IMG/VR virus record: IMGVR_UViG_3300030451_002801 | Coordinates: 1-29,280 of that record | Length of the DNA: 29,280 nt | Strand: one strand, 5' to 3' | Source: a virus | Shown: positions 955 through 16,911 of the stretch, piece by piece | How the letters are laid out: each line of letters begins with the position of its first letter | Numbering within the stretch: position 1 is the first letter of the stretch | Program-made: the position numbers and the translations under genes | Notes under the pieces: model-generated | Told to the model about the DNA's origin: nothing | The model's database searches: none | What the model saw: only the letters and a program-made list of their open reading frames with translations

Positions 955-2802
955 TTAATGTGTCTCTGCCCAGTTATTTCCTATCTTGTAGTCCCCATCG
1001 AGAGGACATTTCATGTTAAGCGTTTTCCCTGCTTTCTCTATAGCAGCTACAAAAGTTCTTCCAAGATCTTGTGCGTGTTCTTCAAGACAAGAGAACTGAA
1101 CTTCGTCGTGGACATTGGCGTGCATTTCGTAAGGATGTTTAGCCATCAAAGCAAATTCAATAAGACTCTGCTTCATCACTATAGCACCACAACTTTGTAA
1201 GAGAAAGTTAAGTAACGAATGTTTTGATCTTACGTTTATCTTTCTTCCATCTATCCCAGTTAAGTGTCCGTTCTTTTCTGCTGATCTTTCAACGTCAGTT
1301 AAAAGTTTTTTAAAAGCGGGCATCTTGGTCATAAAAGATTTCCTAAGTCTTGCTCCTTCTTTCATGCCCTTACCAACTGACTCTCCTAACCTAGAATTAG
1401 AAGCTCCGTATATAAGTGAGTAGATAAAGGTTTTTGCTGAGTCCCTAGTTGGTAGACCTGCGGCATTCTGGTTGACTGTGTGAATGTCTCCTTCAAGAAT
1501 CTCCCGAACATATTTACCAGAGTCATAAGCAAAAAGGTAATGTGCAAGACATCTAAGCTCAAGCTGTGAAGCATCAGAACCTACAAGAACCTTTCCTTCT
1601 GGAGCAATAAACAACTCACGACATTCCTTTCCATACTCTGATCTTGTTGCAGGAATCTGTCCAAGGTTTGGAGAGTTGTGGCTACACCTTCCAGAGATAG
1701 TTCCTGCTGTGTTAACGCTGCCATGAATCCTTCCTTCGTCAGTCACAACACTAAGCCAAGCGTGCTTACCCTCTGCTAACATTCCAAGTCTCTTCTGCAC
1801 TAAAAGATACTCAAGAAGTTTAAGAGATTCCTTTGTACCAATGTTTCTTAAAACTGTTTCATTTATTTCTGGTCGCTTACCTTCATAAGCTGCAGGTTCC
1901 CACCCTGCCTCCATAAGTCTTTCAGCTATTTGATCTCTGCTTCCAGGATTAAAAGGGATGGTTTTAGTTTTGTTTCCCATCTTCTCTGCAAGATCACTAA
2001 TGTTTTGTTTTAGTCCTGCCTTCTTTAGCTGACCCTTCAACGCAATCTTAGTTTTACCTGTGTACTCGATGCCGTCTACCTCTACCTTCCAACCAGTAAC
2101 ACTCTTCATTTGTTCTACCTTCGGAGGAAAAACTTCTTGCATCTCTTGTTCTATCTGAACTCTACGCATCATAAGTTTCTTTGCTAAATCCTTTGCTTTA
2201 TCTACAGCGAAAGGGAAGCCATTCATTTCCTGCACTCGAATAAGCTTTGCGAACTCATGCTCCAGAACAAGAGACTTAGGAGAAACACTGTGAGCCAACA
2301 AATGTTTATATAAAGAAAAAGTAGTTCTTACATCTTGATTACAATATCTTTGCATCTCTGGACTAAAAGTTTCCCAGTCTTCGCTTTCGCCATGAGAGTC
2401 TTTATGTACTCCTATTCTAATCCCCCAAGCTTTTAGCGAATGAGAACCTATAAGTTTTTTAGGAAAGTTTTCTCTTTTGTGATCGCTAGTAGCTATGTCT
2501 GGAAAGAGAACCTTTGCCATCAACATTGTGTCTACAATCTTGTTAAACTTAATGCCATACAATTTGTAAAGAGCAGGAGCATCAAAGCCTATGCCGTTGT
2601 GAAAGCAAATATACTCAGACTCCTGTAACATTTTTAACCCCTCTTCTATGTTTTCCTTTGTTGTATTAAACTCGTAGAGGTTGCTGTTTGTTGGATCTAT
2701 AACTGTAAAGCAGTGAAGCCTGTCAAGTCCTTCAAGTGTCTGCCAGTTTTTGATAGCGTTCGTTTCTATGTCGCTAATAAGTATATTGTATTTGTATTTC
2801 AT
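955..2802 (-). CDS. T7 gp5-like family A DNA polymerase
   Basis: A 615-residue replicative polymerase with an intact 3'-5' proofreading domain: DIETN (D11, E13), HNGIGFD (D74) and YCNQDV (D157). The polymerase domain has motif A SDASQLELR (D410), motif B RDSAKTFIYSLIYGA (R453, K457, Y461) and motif C VHDEV (H565, D566, E567). The O-helix position equivalent to E. coli Phe762 and T7 Tyr526 is tyrosine (Y461), as in T7. The protein is about 90 residues shorter than T7 gp5 (704). I could not confirm a thioredoxin-binding loop by eye. The start overlaps the methyltransferase stop by 4 bases (ATGA), a classic coupling. It would work with the primase-helicase and SSB encoded upstream. Confidence 0.96.
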   Translation of the reverse strand: MKYKYNILISDIETNAIKNWQTLEGLDRLHCFTVIDPTNSNLYEFNTTKENIEEGLKMLQESEYICFHNGIGFDAPALYKLYGIKFNKIVDTMLMAKVLFPDIATSDHKRENFPKKLIGSHSLKAWGIRIGVHKDSHGESEDWETFSPEMQRYCNQDVRTTFSLYKHLLAHSVSPKSLVLEHEFAKLIRVQEMNGFPFAVDKAKDLAKKLMMRRVQIEQEMQEVFPPKVEQMKSVTGWKVEVDGIEYTGKTKIALKGQLKKAGLKQNISDLAEKMGNKTKTIPFNPGSRDQIAERLMEAGWEPAAYEGKRPEINETVLRNIGTKESLKLLEYLLVQKRLGMLAEGKHAWLSVVTDEGRIHGSVNTAGTISGRCSHNSPNLGQIPATRSEYGKECRELFIAPEGKVLVGSDASQLELRCLAHYLFAYDSGKYVREILEGDIHTVNQNAAGLPTRDSAKTFIYSLIYGASNSRLGESVGKGMKEGARLRKSFMTKMPAFKKLLTDVERSAEKNGHLTGIDGRKINVRSKHSLLNFLLQSCGAIVMKQSLIEFALMAKHPYEMHANVHDEVQFSCLEEHAQDLGRTFVAAIEKAGKTLNMKCPLDGDYKIGNNWAETH

Positions 2803-3668
2803 CTTTCTATTCTTTCTATTAATTTTTTTGAGAGGATTCTGAAGGCTCGTTCTGCTGTTTGAGGGACAACTCCTGCCCCAAGAGTCCGAAGTCTGTCCAC
2901 CCTGTTGGAAGTCCCATCATTTGCTCTACCCAATCTGCGTTCAAGAGTTCGTAGTCTTTCCCATTTCTTTTGAGGGCTTCGTGGTGAGGATGGAAAGGTT
3001 TCTCTTCCCCCTTTCTGTCCTTCTTGGATTTCTCCCTCTGAACAAAAGAGCCATGAACATAAGGATGATTTGCTAGTCCCAGTTGTCCGTAGTTTGGTCT
3101 GTTCGATACTTTCTGAGCTTGTGCTACGTCTGGAGTAGGAAAGAATAAATACTCTCCTTCTGTGGTGGGATGCTCCAACTTCAGACGCAGAGAATATTCC
3201 TGCCTCAACGATGTAACCCAACGACTCCAAGCTTCTGAGGACATATCTGAGAACAGGCTCGCCTTCACTTGTTTTTGTACTGATAATTCCTTCGACGTTT
3301 TCCAAGAAAACAATGGAAGGTCTACATTCTCTAATTCCATTTTCGATGAAGGGATACAGGTGTCGCTCATCTCTGTCTGACTTGCGCTTTGAATTAGAGC
3401 TAAAGGGTTGACAGGGGAAACCTCCAGAGAGGATGTCCACCAATCCACGAAACTTTCTAAAAGGGAATGTTCTAAGATCAGTCCAAAGAGGTGCTTGATC
3501 CAGTTTTCCCTCTTGCATCTTGTCAACCAAGTTGCCGATGTTGAAAGCTTCCCTCTCCACCATACATATCTCTCGAACATTTGGGAAGATTCTTCTAAGG
3601 CCGAGTCCGATACCTTCATATCCAGAGCAGAGCGAAAGATGATTAATAATTGTTTTGGAAGTATCCAC
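2799..3668 (-). CDS. C5-cytosine DNA methyltransferase, with an alternative +1 frame in the recognition region
   Basis: A 289-residue protein with the ordered motifs of DNA cytosine-5 methyltransferases: motif I LSLCSGYEGIGLGL (11-24, SAM binding), motif IV GFPCQPFS (catalytic C86), motif VI ENVEG (123-127), motif VIII RRRVFIL (170-176) and motif X LGAGVVPQTAERAF (263-276). It should methylate cytosine in phage DNA, most simply as protection from host restriction; no partner nuclease is seen. Residues 177-245, where the target-recognition domain should lie, are an odd Ser/Arg/Lys/Glu-rich stretch. The +1 frame over about 3145-2888 is also open and reads like a real methyltransferase recognition region (FFPTPD... 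then WVEQMMGLPTGWTD). Either two compensating indels or dual use of the DNA is possible. The gene sits between primase-helicase and polymerase, where T7 has no methyltransferase. Confidence 0.88.
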   Translation of the reverse strand: MDTSKTIINHLSLCSGYEGIGLGLRRIFPNVREICMVEREAFNIGNLVDKMQEGKLDQAPLWTDLRTFPFRKFRGLVDILSGGFPCQPFSSNSKRKSDRDERHLYPFIENGIRECRPSIVFLENVEGIISTKTSEGEPVLRYVLRSLESLGYIVEAGIFSASEVGASHHRRRVFILSYSRRSTSSESIEQTKLRTTGTSKSSLCSWLFCSEGEIQEGQKGGRETFPSSPRSPQKKWERLRTLERRLGRANDGTSNRVDRLRTLGAGVVPQTAERAFRILSKKLIERIER

Positions 3669-3670
3669 AT

Positions 3671-8655: not shown

Positions 8656-9669
8656 TTATTTGTTATGCTGCTGCTGTAAAGCCTCAAGCCCTCCTAAATA
8701 AGAACTGCCATCAAGATAAGCGTAACGCATTGTTTGTTCAATGTTCTTATGACCTAGCCAATCTTGAGCTAGTTTAATGTTACCTGTTCTTTGTACCAAC
8801 CGAGAACCGCAAGTGTGCCTACATAAGTAAAAAATAAAATCTTTATCTCCCTTACGCCCTAAATACGCTCTAACTTTATTCCAAACAACCCTAACCCTTT
8901 CCTTAGTCCAATAACCCCAGACTCTACCCTTGTCTTTATTCTTTAAAAAAGCTTCATAGGCTCTTTTGGTTAGCGGTACTGTTCTTTGGTTGCTGTTCTT
9001 AGTTTCCAGAAGATTAACAACGTAACCGAGAATAGGATCTGACTGCACTTGTCCGCAATAGATAGCTCTCGCCTCGCTTGGACGCATACCAGTGTCTATT
9101 TGCCATTTAAAAAAATCAGAAAAATAATCCTCACCAAGATGTTCTAGGCAATCCAATATATCACTTTCATCTTGCTCACTAAAAAATGCGTTTCTTTTAT
9201 TGTCCCCTAGCTTCACTTCTGGAATTGCAGGTTTTTCCTCAATCCACTTTCTACTAAGAGCAAAAGAATAAGCCCTTGAAAACGTAGCAAGCTTTAATTT
9301 GATAGTTGCAGGTGCGTTCCCCTTTTCCCTGCAATGTAAAACAAACTTGTCCAGGTAATTGATATCTATCTCACTCGCTAAAGTATTCTCACCAAAAAAT
9401 CTTTTGAATAAGTTACAGTGGTGCGTTGCTGTTGGTTCGTTAGGGGTGTCCTTCCAAACATTCAAGATAACTTTATCGAACAACTCTGAAACTGTTAACT
9501 GTTCTTTACAAATAACCGCTGCATCAACCCTTTCACCTCTATGTAATCTCGCTCTTATGCCAACCTCATACTCTTCTGCCTCAATTTTAGATTCAAACTG
9601 TTTTCGGTAGCGTTCCCCTTTCACCATAAAGTCCGCTAAATATTTTCTGCCTTTTGTTCGTATAGCCAT
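8656..9669 (-). CDS. int: Tyrosine recombinase (phage integrase)
   Basis: A 337-residue tyrosine recombinase with an N-terminal arm-binding/SAM-like region and a C-terminal catalytic domain. Visible catalytic residues are R196 (TGMRPSEAR), K224 (LETKNSNQRT), R284 in CRHT, H307 (WLGHKN) and nucleophile Y316 (MRYAYL). The first residue of box II, usually histidine in HxxR, is tyrosine here (Y281 in YLCRHT). I believe such variants occur in other integrases, but it is worth noting. The gene lies directly upstream of RNA polymerase, as in integrase-bearing marine podoviruses. It suggests temperate capacity, although no attachment site could be identified. The leader contains AAAAACTACC rather than a Shine-Dalgarno site. 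Confidence 0.93.
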   Translation of the reverse strand: MAIRTKGRKYLADFMVKGERYRKQFESKIEAEEYEVGIRARLHRGERVDAAVICKEQLTVSELFDKVILNVWKDTPNEPTATHHCNLFKRFFGENTLASEIDINYLDKFVLHCREKGNAPATIKLKLATFSRAYSFALSRKWIEEKPAIPEVKLGDNKRNAFFSEQDESDILDCLEHLGEDYFSDFFKWQIDTGMRPSEARAIYCGQVQSDPILGYVVNLLETKNSNQRTVPLTKRAYEAFLKNKDKGRVWGYWTKERVRVVWNKVRAYLGRKGDKDFIFYLCRHTCGSRLVQRTGNIKLAQDWLGHKNIEQTMRYAYLDGSSYLGGLEALQQQHNK

Positions 9670-9703
9670 GTCGGTAGTTTTTAATTTTATTTAATTAATG
9701 TTA

Positions 9704-9734
9704 ATAATAAATCTTACAATACAACCCCTGTCAA
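9704..9734 (-). promoter_or_regulatory. Candidate sigma-70-like promoter before integrase
   Basis: On the minus strand a perfect TTGACA (9734-9729) is followed by TATTAT (9709-9704). The 19-base spacing is longer than ideal. The site lies just after the terminator at 9730-9809 and before the integrase start, so it could restart transcription of integrase and RNA polymerase. The TTGACA abuts the terminator U-tract. This is a pattern match only. Confidence 0.35.
9711..9726 (-). repeat. 16-nt intergenic motif, copy 1 (GGTTGTATTGTAAGAT)
   Basis: The minus strand reads GGTTGTATTGTAAGAT. A copy with 15 of 16 identical bases lies at 13730-13745 in the same orientation (GGTTGTATTATAAGAT). Both are in intergenic DNA, upstream of the integrase-RNA polymerase pair and upstream of the early genes. 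Shared long motifs upstream of transcription units are what phage RNA polymerase promoters look like in T7 relatives, and TATTATAAGA loosely resembles the CACTATAGGGA core of the T7 promoter. Confidence 0.5.
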
Positions 9735-9809
9735 AAAAAATAAAAAAGAGGACATTAGGAAGCAGGAAAAACTACCAAGTAAAACCTGCAAGAAAGCCCT
9801 AATGCCCTC
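9730..9809 (-). terminator. Strong Rho-independent terminator after the early genes
   Basis: On the minus strand GAGGGCATTAGG (9809-9798) pairs with CCTAATGTCCTC (9759-9748), with one wobble. An inner stem GCAGG/CCTGC (9789-9785 with 9766-9762) closes a loop of about 18 bases. A T-rich run (TTTTTTATTTTTTTT) follows immediately. It lies between the DnaA-like gene and integrase, so it should separate the early operon from integrase/RNA polymerase. The long, two-part stem could also be the end of a small RNA. Confidence 0.8.
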
Positions 9810-9967: not shown

Positions 9968-10306
9968 TTATAATTCAAGGTCTTTTAAAACCTTATCTAA
10001 AAAAGGTCTGATCAAGTGCTGTTGATCTTCACTATTTAGAACGCTTTCAACTTTTTTAAGTGAAGAGTAAACGCTTGCAGTGGATTGATTGAATACTTCA
10101 GCTACACTTCGCATCGTCCAATCAAAATGAATGGATAGGATATACATAGCTATCCGCCTCCATCCCACTGTATGATGATCCCCATCATTTTTTATTCGCT
10201 CGGCACTATAGCCAGAATGAACCGCTAAAGTTGCCAATATTTTTTCCACAAGGTCATCCCTATTTTCAAGGGAGATTACAGGTCGTTTTCTTTTTTTAGT
10301 TTTCAT
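9968..10306 (-). CDS. DnaA domain IV-like DNA-binding protein
   Basis: A 112-residue protein with a basic N-terminus (KTKKRKRP) and a central helix-turn-helix resembling the C-terminal DNA-binding domain of bacterial DnaA: RRIAMYILSIHFDWTMRSVA (50-69), then EVFNQSTASVYSSLKKVE (70-87). This matches the DnaA pattern RxIAMYL...IGxxFGxRDHSTVxxAxxKIE, with the DHST signature degraded to QST. The AAA+ ATPase domain is absent, so it can bind DNA but not act as an initiator motor. It may regulate phage or host transcription or replication by competing for DnaA boxes; that is inference. A near-DnaA box (TTATCCAAA, 9824-9816) lies about 145 bases past its stop. It is the last sizeable gene before the early terminator. 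Confidence 0.7.
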   Translation of the reverse strand: MKTKKRKRPVISLENRDDLVEKILATLAVHSGYSAERIKNDGDHHTVGWRRIAMYILSIHFDWTMRSVAEVFNQSTASVYSSLKKVESVLNSEDQQHLIRPFLDKVLKDLEL

Positions 10307-13162: not shown

Positions 13163-13212
13163 AATAGTAGTTATTTTTTTTTAATGGTTAGTTTTTAGTT
13201 AATGTAAATTTA

Positions 13213-13240
13213 TTTATAGCATAATTAAAGAGCATTGCAA
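13213..13240 (-). promoter_or_regulatory. Candidate host-type early promoter
   Basis: On the minus strand TTGCAA (13240-13235) and TATAAA (13218-13213) are spaced 16 bases apart. A TG dinucleotide in the extended -10 position (TGC before TATAAA) strengthens the match to a σ70 promoter. It would start transcripts about 40-50 bases before the first early gene, the position expected of T7 A-type early promoters. Confidence 0.5.
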
Positions 13241-13278
13241 AAAAAAGTGTAAAAAATTTTAAAGGTGTTTTTTTGGGG

Positions 13279-13299
13279 TTGCTTTGGGCTTGCTTTGGG
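13279..13299. repeat. Tandem TTGCTTTGGG repeats
   Basis: TTGCTTTGGG occurs at 13279-13288 and 13290-13299. Related copies are GGTTGCTTTG ending at 13505 and GTGGTTGCTT at 13631-13640. All are in the same orientation within the intergenic region, suggesting a binding-site family. Confidence 0.6.
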
Positions 13300-13385
13300 T
13301 GGGTTATAAGTAGCTTTAAGCTTGTATTTACAAAGTGAATACATAAGAGAACAAAAACACGGAATAATAAAAAAATACGGATGCT

Positions 13386-13433
13386 GTTCACTTGAACACC
13401 TGGTGTACGTTTGAACACCTATCGAACATCATA
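13386..13433 (-). promoter_or_regulatory. Promoter-like box with operator-like direct repeats
   Basis: TTGAACACCT is repeated exactly at 13392-13401 and 13411-13420 (19-base spacing). It is flanked by the inverted half GTTCACTTGAAC (13386-13397), the palindrome ACACCTGGTGT (13397-13407) and a partial copy, TCGAACATC. On the minus strand an extended -10 (TGG then TATGAT, 13433-13428) directly precedes the cluster, so a protein bound here would sit over the start site. No convincing -35 is visible. Confidence 0.45.
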
Positions 13434-13491
13434 CCACTAGACTAAATATCTGGCGTTTAATTAAATGTTTTCAGCTACTATTATTTAATAA

Positions 13492-13560
13492 GGGGGGTTG
13501 CTTTGTCTTTACTGGTGACAATTAGCAGCGGATTTTTAAAAAGGGGGGTAGCATGGGGGG
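13492..13560. repeat. Six-base G tracts
   Basis: The plus strand carries GGGGGG at 13492-13497, 13543-13548 and 13555-13560. The last two are separated by TAGCAT and face the C-tract pair at 13820-13836. They could give G-rich structures or pair with the C tracts. Confidence 0.6.
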
Positions 13561-13626
13561 TTTTTGATCGGCTCGTACTAACGTATACCCCTTCAAATTT
13601 TTGCAACTAAACCAAGGAGGGTGTGT

Positions 13627-13650
13627 TGTGGTGGTTGCTTGTGGTGGTTG
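13627..13650. repeat. Direct repeat TGTGGTGGTTG x2
   Basis: TGTGGTGGTTG is at 13627-13637 and 13640-13650, exact copies separated by two bases, immediately before the AACCTAAAG-like array. Confidence 0.65.
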
Positions 13651-13726
13651 AACCTTAACACAACCTAAAGTTCACATTTAACCTGTTGTTAAGTGTACCT
13701 ATAAGTAACTTAAAATTAACTTAAAG
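13651..13726. repeat. AACCTAAAG-like array, partly 11-nt phased (SRL/SRR-like)
   Basis: Imperfect copies are AACCTTAAC (13651), AACCTAAAG (13662), AACCTGTTG (13680), TACCTATAAG (13696), AACTTAAAA (13707) and AACTTAAAG (13718). Successive steps of 11, 11 and 11 bases occur at both ends of the array. T7 has arrays of a seven-base CCTAAAG-type sequence (SRL and SRR) next to its terminal repeats, and the resemblance in sequence and map position is striking. Confidence 0.5.
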
Positions 13727-13729
13727 CTT

Positions 13730-13745
13730 ATCTTATAATACAACC
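13730..13745 (-). repeat. 16-nt intergenic motif, copy 2 (GGTTGTATTATAAGAT)
   Basis: The minus strand reads GGTTGTATTATAAGAT, one base different from the copy at 9711-9726 and in the same orientation. A weaker relative, AGGTTGTGTTAAGG, is present on the same strand at about 13668-13655. It is a candidate promoter of the phage RNA polymerase or a shared regulator site. Confidence 0.5.
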
Positions 13746-13819
13746 TACAACTACTACTTAAAAACAAATTATAACTCTATTTCATAGGTTATCTAATTAA
13801 TACTAAGTAAGGATGTTCT

Positions 13820-13836
13820 CCCCCCTTTATCCCCCC
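13820..13836. repeat. Paired six-base C tracts
   Basis: CCCCCC at 13820-13825 and 13831-13836, separated by TTTAT. Together with the G-tract pair at 13543-13560 they form a long-range inverted repeat enclosing about 260 bases. Confidence 0.6.
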
Positions 13837-13875
13837 TCATAGGGTTATTATATACCCGAACAAACTCAAAACTCC

Positions 13876-14882: not shown

Positions 14883-15011
14883 TTACAAATCGTCGTTAAT
14901 TAAAAATGGTATAATGTGAGTCAAAGGTATTTCTAATCCCACCTCGTCAATCCTAAAGCCAGTTAGGGCTATTCCTATGGTGTTGTTTGTTGCCGTAGTA
15001 GTTGTCAGCAA
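14883..15011 (-). CDS. Possible 42-residue protein overlapping the terminase end
   Basis: A TTG at 15011, preceded 9 bases upstream by AGGAGC, opens a frame of 42 codons ending 7 bases before the amidase start. The first 59 bases lie inside the terminase gene in another frame. The protein has a threonine-rich start, then ALTGFRIDEVGLEIPLTHII and an acidic end (LINDDL), which reads like natural protein rather than an AT-rich shadow. T7 places small overlapping genes (18.5, 18.7, 19.2, 19.3) near its large terminase. No function is recognised, and the TTG start weakens the call. Confidence 0.35.
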   Translation of the reverse strand: MLTTTTATNNTIGIALTGFRIDEVGLEIPLTHIIPFLINDDL

Positions 15012-16635
15012 GCTTTTGAAGCTCCTGATCCAGTAAATCTTCTTTTCTATCTTTTATCTTTTTCTCTGCGTCTTGGGACATTTGTTCTGCCCAGTAGCTT
15101 ACAGCCATTGCAAGAGCATCAAGTCTATCATCGTGTGTTATAGCTCCTCTGTCTCTTGTTATTCGTGATAGTTGGTAGATGAGTTGGTATTTTAGTTGTG
15201 ATTCAAGAGGGTAGTTTTGGGCTGAGTTAAAGTCGCTACGAATTACTTCTGGATCTACTACTAGCTTGTGTTGGCTCATCACTGGCTCAAGGGTGTCAAT
15301 GATCCTCTTCTCCTTCTGAATGCTGTGGCGTACTTCTTCTATTGTGCAGGGGTGTATCTTGTTTAGGAAAGGTTTAAACAACTCACTAAACATACCATCA
15401 CCAAAGTTACTTTCAACAATGATGTAGTTAACCTTGTGCTTCTTGGCTTTCATGGCGAGAACTTTTAGAACGTCTTCACCATAACCACCTTGCATACCTC
15501 CTGCATCGGGAACGTATAGATATCCGTTAAGCATCTTTACAATAGCCCAAGATGTTTCATCTCGTCCTCTTCCAGAAGGGTCAATGGACATCACTGATCC
15601 AGTATATTCTACCATGTCTCCTACCTGCTTCATAGGTCTGTAGAACCTGTCCCCAGTAAAGCCTACGTTTGGTACATCACCTCCCCATATTAAGTCAGGA
15701 GATTGCGCCCACACTACTTTCTCAGGAGCAACTTCATCGTCTATGTCCATGACTACAAGGTCGTTAACTTTGAGAGGATATCTATCAAGGTCAGACAACC
15801 TACTATCCAACATAAACTGCATAGCAAATCCTGCCTTGCCATAACTAACCTCACGTTCTGTTAAATCTAAGTCGCTAAATCTTAAAGGTTCTGTAGATTT
15901 GCCTACTTTTTTCTCAGACACGCAGAGAGGACTCACCCTCCCATAGTATGTTTTTTCATTCTTTTCGGGAGTAATATATTTGCAAGTCCATATACTTGAG
16001 GTGTAATCTCTCTCCATTAGCTTGTTGTAGAGAGAGTCTTCACACTGTGGTGTACCAAGAAAGACAATTTTGGATTCCTCGTCAGGTTTTAATATGGACT
16101 CGAACTCCTTAACCTGCTCCCCCAATTTGTCTCTCATACCCTGCGTGGCTGAGTTGTTGGGAACCTCCACATCGTCCGCAACTATGATGTCAGCCCTGCT
16201 ACCTGTAAGTTGGGAGGAGATGCCTAGCGACTTGACGCTCGGAGCATGACTTGCAGGAGCAAGGCCAACATCAAAACTTATCTTACTAAATCTTTGATTA
16301 GGAGAAGGGATTAAGTCTACCAACAACGGCATCTCGTGAATTAACCGAAGGGTAAACGTAGAGAAATCATCCGCTCTTGTTTTACTAGCAGAGCATACTA
16401 GAATGTTTTTTGTAGGATCTAAAAGTAACTGATGAACGACGTAAGCAGAACAGATCCACGACTTACCAACTCCTCTAAAGCCTTGGATGATAGTTCTTCG
16501 AGAACCATTCTGCATCCAGTCGGCTATTTCATATTGTATGTCTGTGGGGTCAGGAAGATTTAAATGCTTCCAGACGAGATATAGAAAGTTGCGAAAGTCT
16601 TTAAGCTCTTCGGGTAAAGAATCTTTAGAAGACAT
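14953..16635 (-). CDS. terL: Terminase large subunit (T7 gp19-like)
   Basis: A 560-residue DNA packaging motor. The N-terminal ATPase has Walker A GFRGVGKS (52-59, K58), Walker B IIVADDVE (D154, D155, E157) and a LGTP coupling motif (193-196). The C-terminal RNase H-like nuclease shows SIDPSGRGRDE (D352, D359), IIVESN and HDDRLDA (D502, D503, D506). It would translocate DNA into the prohead and cut the concatemer. The length is close to T7 gp19 (586). It follows the small subunit as in T7 (18 then 19). Confidence 0.96.
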   Translation of the reverse strand: MSSKDSLPEELKDFRNFLYLVWKHLNLPDPTDIQYEIADWMQNGSRRTIIQGFRGVGKSWICSAYVVHQLLLDPTKNILVCSASKTRADDFSTFTLRLIHEMPLLVDLIPSPNQRFSKISFDVGLAPASHAPSVKSLGISSQLTGSRADIIVADDVEVPNNSATQGMRDKLGEQVKEFESILKPDEESKIVFLGTPQCEDSLYNKLMERDYTSSIWTCKYITPEKNEKTYYGRVSPLCVSEKKVGKSTEPLRFSDLDLTEREVSYGKAGFAMQFMLDSRLSDLDRYPLKVNDLVVMDIDDEVAPEKVVWAQSPDLIWGGDVPNVGFTGDRFYRPMKQVGDMVEYTGSVMSIDPSGRGRDETSWAIVKMLNGYLYVPDAGGMQGGYGEDVLKVLAMKAKKHKVNYIIVESNFGDGMFSELFKPFLNKIHPCTIEEVRHSIQKEKRIIDTLEPVMSQHKLVVDPEVIRSDFNSAQNYPLESQLKYQLIYQLSRITRDRGAITHDDRLDALAMAVSYWAEQMSQDAEKKIKDRKEDLLDQELQKLADNYYGNKQHHRNSPNWL

Positions 16636-16653
16636 TTTACGTGTAATATATAT

Positions 16654-16911
16654 TTACTCTCCACCACTTGCAACAGCTACTACTCTATCTATTCCTTCTT
16701 CTTCTTTAAAAGGCAACACACTTACAAGGTCTTGTATTTTAGTGTCTTGCTGTAGAGAAGAATGCACTCCGTTGTCTTTTAAAAACTGTCGAGCAGCATT
16801 TAGAAGTGAAGGTTCTGCGTCTCCAAGTTTTATTCTTTCAATAAACTCTGATGTTAGAAGATCCTGGAGAATGTGCATCTTCTGTAAGTTACTATTTTCG
16901 TTATCGGCCAT
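16654..16911 (-). CDS. terS: Terminase small subunit (T7 gp18-like)
   Basis: An 85-residue acidic, helical protein located directly before the large terminase and after the holin-like gene, the same position and size as T7 gp18 (89 residues). It should recognise concatemer DNA and load the large subunit. The assignment rests mainly on position and size, with supporting helix content (QKMHILQDLLTSEFIERIK). AAGGAT lies about 10 bases before the ATG. Confidence 0.8.
   Translation of the reverse strand: MADNENSNLQKMHILQDLLTSEFIERIKLGDAEPSLLNAARQFLKDNGVHSSLQQDTKIQDLVSVLPFKEEEGIDRVVAVASGGE

Follow-up and report, generated by a model that had tools for sequence, protein, structure and literature searches.

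In phages T7 and T3, terminase, right-flank repeats, boundary motif, terminal repeat, right edge and left-flank repeats follow one another in that order. The T7 array carries CCTAAAG in gene sense, with steps of mostly 13 nt, and in sixteen T7-like phages of Yersinia 11 to 34 repeats lie between the left terminal repeat and the first promoter (PMC5923468). The cyanophages P-SSP7 and Syn5 have terminal repeats (DTRs) of 206 bp and 237 bp, respectively, and for P-SSP7 the ends are known from sequencing on the DNA of its particles (PMC3350473). The sequence that begins at the mapped right edge is ATCTGTT in T7, T3 and Syn5, ACCTGTT in P-SSP7 and TCTGTT in SP6. A further member of this group is the Pseudomonas phage LUZ100, which is T7-like and bears an integrase, with a DTR of 244 bp (PMC10134795). 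Short-read assemblies of T7-like phages are known to collapse DTRs into mid-contig (PMC10438801).

Here we compare these systems with an uncultured virus record of 29,280 bp, IMGVR_UViG_3300030451_002801, the whole of which is referred to as the window. The original prediction was that an array at 13651-13726 of this record adjoins the presumed genome ends and resembles the SRL/SRR repeats of T7.

Gene layout around the probable junction

The window is T7-type and carries nearly all of its genes on the minus strand. Its replication-side genes encode an exonuclease, a DNA polymerase, a methyltransferase, a primase-helicase, endonuclease I and a gp2.5-like SSB, and a phage RNA polymerase and an integrase are also found before an intergenic stretch of 713 nt (13163-13875). 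Beyond this stretch lie a metalloprotease-like gene, an amidase, the large and small terminases (TerL and TerS) and the virion genes. The genes on which the comparison turns are as follows.

8656-9669: tyrosine integrase gene
14953..16635, minus strand: large terminase, T7 gp19 type
16654..16911, minus strand: small terminase, T7 gp18 type (Pfam DNA_Packaging_2)

The window thus has the gp18/gp19-type terminase of a T7-type junction. Because its late genes abut its early genes, the layout is that of a concatemer or of a genome whose terminal repeats were collapsed in assembly; end repeats are absent from the 29,280 bp. Unlike T7 and T3, it has the amidase and the metalloprotease-like gene between terminase and junction, and it carries the integrase. 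A blastn search of the junction against phage records gave zero matches; neither a tRNA nor an Rfam RNA was found there, and no tRNA in the whole window.

Several other features of this gene set were seen. The small protein encoded by the gene preceding the integrase (9968-10306) matches Pfam Bac_DnaA_C, the DNA-binding domain at the C-terminus of DnaA, at E 1e-5, which does not reach the curated cut-off. Between this DnaA-like gene and the integrase, at 9690-9800, is a hairpin resembling a terminator, GAGGGCATTAGG ... CCTAATGTCCTC, with a T-run after it in gene sense. Two long overlapping frames (2799-3668 and 2819-3670) each match DNA methyltransferase profiles (PHROGs).

The predicted left boundary

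Two elements mark the predicted left end of the terminal repeat.

13586..13611, minus strand: 26-nt boundary motif TTTAGTTGCAAAAATTTGAAGGGGTA, a single copy downstream of terminase in relatives
13552..13565, minus strand: C-tract AAAAACCCCCCATG, whose C run begins 25 nt inside the predicted terminal repeat

The boundary block is single-copy across the relatives examined, down to those with TerL about 56% identical. It reads GAARGGGTA at its end, and isolates such as Roseobacter phage CRP-125 and the phages HTVC109P (of Pelagibacter) and HTVC142P carry it too. A weight matrix built on 28 marine sequences was applied to the right ends of phages whose DTRs have been mapped, and its top site ends exactly at the first DTR base in T7, T3, P-SSP7 and Syn5, the boundary sequence of T7/T3 being AAAAATCTGA. 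The top site in LUZ100 ends 12 nt before the annotated DTR, a site ending 1 nt past the DTR start ranks fourth in phiKMV, and in the right end of SP6 the matrix does not find the boundary motif. As the motif agrees with mapped ends, and the window has the sequence found at those of T7, T3, P-SSP7 and Syn5, its left boundary is predicted between 13586 and 13585.

When 2.9 million IMG/VR contigs were scanned with the motif alone, 41 new loci were fetched, and in 38 of these the motif has a TerL of T7 type 335-1422 nt upstream of it on its own strand; the other three contain too little DNA for a decision. An extended T3-like form of the motif had no match in the fetched loci, using an overly strict pattern.

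The C-tract, too, is regular in position: in 67 of 68 marine loci it begins 24-27 nt into the repeat. The corresponding offset is 25 nt in T7, T3 and phiKMV, 26 nt in P-SSP7, 24 nt in Syn5 and 28 nt in SP6, so that the window, at 25 nt, shares this feature with T7/T3. LUZ100 is like the window in having the boundary motif and a C-tract 25 nt after it, and just upstream of the motif it has a 12-nt phased CCTCAAG-like array in a place matching that of the window array. It is unlike the window in being GC-rich and in that its annotated DTR starts 12 nt downstream of the motif edge.

The right boundary and the predicted terminal repeat

The opposite edge was placed from a second motif, which sets the length of the repeat at about 221 bp.

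13352..13364, minus strand: right-boundary motif TTCCGTGTTTTTG; relatives have ATCTGTGTTTTTG at a similar distance
13365..13585, minus strand: predicted terminal repeat, ~221 bp, from the left motif and the right-boundary motif
13434..13455, minus strand: imperfect palindrome CGCCAGATATTTAGTCTAGTGG inside the predicted repeat; relatives have CAAGATGTTTGATCTTG and CCAGATGTTAGATCTGG

Compared with ATCTGTT at the mapped right edges, both the window motif and that of the relatives are similar in position and core and not identical in sequence. The predicted repeat would be single in the window because the contig crosses the concatemer junction.

Indirect support for ends with a doubled repeat in virion DNA comes from one relative, a near-complete contig of 37,867 bp (G013). 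Its first base lies 1 nt inside the left edge as predicted, its last 1 nt beyond the right one, and it carries an imperfect terminal repeat (95.7% over 186 nt); the two copies differ, so the contig may mix strains. More broadly, the ends of 22 of 62 contigs fall 147-471 nt downstream of the motif, against 3.6 expected, and one ends within 500 nt upstream; strain variation can also cause downstream breaks, and part of the excess is due to the tandem repeats that lie beyond the right edge. Such breaks were rejected as exact right ends, since G013 and L144 alone come within 1-2 nt of the predicted edge and several others stop inside tandem arrays. None of seven long relative contigs has exact end repeats. 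Isolate records were likewise set aside as evidence for ends, because five linear-labelled pelagiphage/roseophage records start at or near the first gene; a paper on roseophage isolates does not mention terminal repeats (PMC11092137).

Two contigs appear to join clades. G007 was considered as a second array copy in one genome and rejected, its start matching another clade (L034), so that it is probably a chimera. A 42-kb contig (L109 1-700 and L026, IMGVR_UViG_3300030101_002875) opens on one clade's junction, has a second clade's junction near its other end and is probably chimeric as well.

Within the predicted repeat, the arms of the palindrome change in step among relatives (CCAGAT...GTCTGG, CAAGAT...ATCTTG and CTAGAT...ATCTAG), which suggests a conserved hairpin or dyad. 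The plus strand at 13388-13421 reads TTGAACACCTGGTGTACGTTTGAACACCT, with repeated copies of TTGAACACC, and is similar in L004 and L007.

Phased arrays outside the predicted terminal repeat

Repeats occur outside both edges of the predicted terminal repeat, and we first describe those beyond the right edge, at the position of SRL in T7.

13275..13323, minus strand: array in T7 orientation, AAGCTTAAAGC, CCCAAAGCAAG, CCCAAAGCAAC, CCCC

The units of this left-flank array are CTTAAAG, CCCAAAG and CCCAAAG, and it reaches p ~0.002, the floor of the phased-repeat test. A longer CCCAAAG array is present at this position in L004, and other clades swap the units, for example for CTTAAAGCCGG in L036 and L109. 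Just beyond the predicted right edge, at 13324-13342, is an inverted repeat, GTATTCACTTTGTAAATAC, a possible operator that recurs as GTATTCACATTGTAAATAC in L006 and L012 and as GTATTTACTTTGTAATCAC in L108.

The array of the original prediction lies just outside the left edge, the position of SRR in T7, and can be resolved into the following parts.

13706..13726, minus strand: array part 1, the two units CTTTAAGTTA/ATTTTAAGTTA in gene sense, phased at 11 nt here and spaced by 10-12 nt in relatives
13695-13705, minus strand: CTTATAGGTAC, after array part 1
13672..13694, minus strand: conserved core ACTTAACAACAGGTTAAATGTGA inside the array, from the alignment of relatives
13650..13671, minus strand: array part 2, ACTTTAGGTTG/TGTTAAGGTTC, 11-nt step, the copies predicted at 13651 and 13662
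13626..13650, minus strand: CAACCACCACAAG x1.9, a 13-nt direct repeat adjoining the array, missing in L004

The array is real, and weaker than first described. Its coordinates and the 11-base steps at both of its ends are right (AACCTTAAC at 13651, AACCTAAAG at 13662, AACTTAAAA at 13707 and AACTTAAAG at 13718), and the placement next to the genome ends agrees with a motif that is base-exact at the mapped ends of T7, T3, P-SSP7 and Syn5. The count of six copies is generous: three lie within one mismatch of AACYTAAAG (13662, 13707 and 13718) and four within two mismatches in the span, the two middle copies being worse. A phased array stands directly outside the predicted terminal repeat as do SRL and SRR in T7, a position that rests on the predicted boundary.

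The comparison with T7 is supported by the position, by the presence of the array in close relatives and by the enrichment of phased repeats in both flanks of relatives, but word, orientation and period differ. The surrounding genes are all on the minus strand, so the unit in gene sense is CTTTAAG/CTTTAGG, opposite in orientation to that of T7, different in sequence and stepped by 11 rather than about 13 nt. CCTAAAG itself has 12 copies in the window, where 6 would be expected, but they are spread over genes and only one lies in the intergenic region.

Relatives with TerL at least 87% identical keep the array region and share a layout of two CTTTAAGT-like units, 10-12 nt apart, followed by the core ACTTAACAACAGGTTAAATGTG, by weaker phased units and then by the block TTTTGGTAAAAAAATSTGAARGGGTA, which is much better conserved than the array units. 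Unit and spacing drift among relatives, and the array is mostly missing from phages with 70-75% identical terminase, which still keep the boundary motif, while some phages have no detectable right-flank array. Conservation of a CCTAAAG word from T7 is therefore not borne out; the elements in common with T7 are the boundary motif of 26 nt and, 25 nt into the repeat, the C-tract, rather than the array.

Direct repeats of 11 nt with a conserved 23-nt core are typical of regulator operators, and the array may be read as one, its repeats lying on one helix face and controlling the early transcription of genes that begin some 500 nt downstream. This reading is unlikely, as the array is upstream of the predicted repeat, which would put it at the far right end of the linear virion genome, distant from early promoters; its spacing, moreover, drifts between 10 and 12 nt in relatives. 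The reading calls for a phage or host regulator that binds as PhoB/OmpR-like head-to-tail dimers, and no such partner was identified.

It is more doubtful still that the array is functionless, being an AT-rich chance similarity or a drifting tandem duplication. The intergenic region of 713 nt was shuffled 2000 times with its dinucleotides kept. A cluster of four copies within two mismatches in a span of 76 nt is ordinary, 354 of these shuffles reaching it, and the drift of unit and spacing would fit this reading as well. Three copies within one mismatch are unusual (3 of 2000 shuffles), for a word picked after seeing the sequence. A word-free test, which takes the best self-match at lag 10-13 in the 204 nt that flank the predicted terminal repeat here, gives p ~0.008 for the right flank, with 2.9% of other window segments scoring equally well; the score comes from TTTAAGTTAATTTTAAGTTACTTATAGGT at lag 11, and the neighbouring CAACCACCACAAG repeat ties at lag 13. 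Against a chance origin are the conservation of the array with the core in relatives and the frequency of phased repeats (p<=0.01) among 35 non-redundant loci with dissimilar right flanks, which is 10/35 in right flanks and 11/23 in left flanks, compared with 4/175 background segments. The enrichment has p=3e-6 at the SRR position and p=4e-9 at the SRL position, values from Fisher tests that overstate independence as the loci share ancestry; inside the repeat (3/30) it is not significant.

The array and core might instead be a phage RNA polymerase promoter, the counterpart of phiOR, which in T7 and T3 is just upstream of the corresponding position, and the core has a fitting length of about 23 nt and is well conserved. 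T7-type promoters are multi-copy, however, with eight in LUZ100 (PMC10134795), whereas a weight-matrix scan for the core in seven loci, the whole window included, found no second good copy, making this very improbable. Least probable of all is that the repeats are arm-type sites of the integrase encoded at 8656-9669 and the array part of attP: short direct repeats, about 10-11 nt long, are what arm sites consist of, but the array is some 4 kb from that gene, there is no tRNA in the window and the pattern tracks the lysis/terminase side and the boundary motif, not integrase. The operator, promoter and integrase-arm readings are all less likely than a role at the concatemer junction.

A model for the junction

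The window probably crosses a concatemer junction of T7 type whose repeat words are its own, and junctions of this kind are already known. In its full form, which we consider probable, the sequence would hold a left end marked by the boundary motif, a right cut at TTCCGTGTTTTTG and flanking arrays that take part in packaging, an assignment of junction and edges made because of their agreement with mapped phages. Late genes, right flank, one copy of the ~221-bp terminal repeat, left flank and early genes would then follow in that order, the array first predicted being the right-flank (SRR position) array and the second (SRL position) array lying outside the other edge. The motif at 13586-13611 would mark where the left end of the repeat forms, and a gp18/gp19-type terminase would recognise the boundary signals on replicated concatemers. 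The helically phased arrays on both sides may offer terminase subunits a platform for docking or spacing or, alternatively, may aid in duplicating the repeat; the outcome would be a full repeat at both ends of each virion genome.

Sequence comparison with mapped phages supports the boundary signals, their positions, the terminase type and the enrichment of phased arrays in relatives. A packaging role for the arrays, including binding of packaging proteins, is what we infer from their position, phasing and recurrence. Because the array is missing in phages with ~73% identical TerL that keep the motif, it would not be essential to the shared mechanism, and the fast change of unit, orientation and period, together with the phages in which no right-flank array is detectable, also argues against an essential role. 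Against the junction model itself stand the use of predicted ends only, the mismatch of SP6 and the annotated end of LUZ100, 12 nt away.

A probable shared code for genome ends

From the marine phages to T3, T7 and the cyanophages, the best conserved element in these comparisons is the 26-base signal beside the repeats, not the repeats. We think it quite probable that T7-type phages, among them enterobacterial T3/T7, cyanophages and uncultured marine phages, share a genome-end sequence code, and its parts would with like probability be the 26-nt left motif, the C-tract at +25, an ATCTGT-type right boundary and fast-changing phased outer arrays. This shared code is potentially the new part of the work; a description of the motif was not found in the open-access papers searched, which include little of the older work on T7/T3 packaging.

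If the code is true, ends would be predictable without end mapping, including those of pelagiphage/roseophage records opened at a gene start, and could be proposed for the many uncultured podoviruses from the sea in which assembly has collapsed the terminal repeat. A single motif that locates the mapped ends of several distantly related phages would also provide a testable code for how T7-type terminases choose genome ends.
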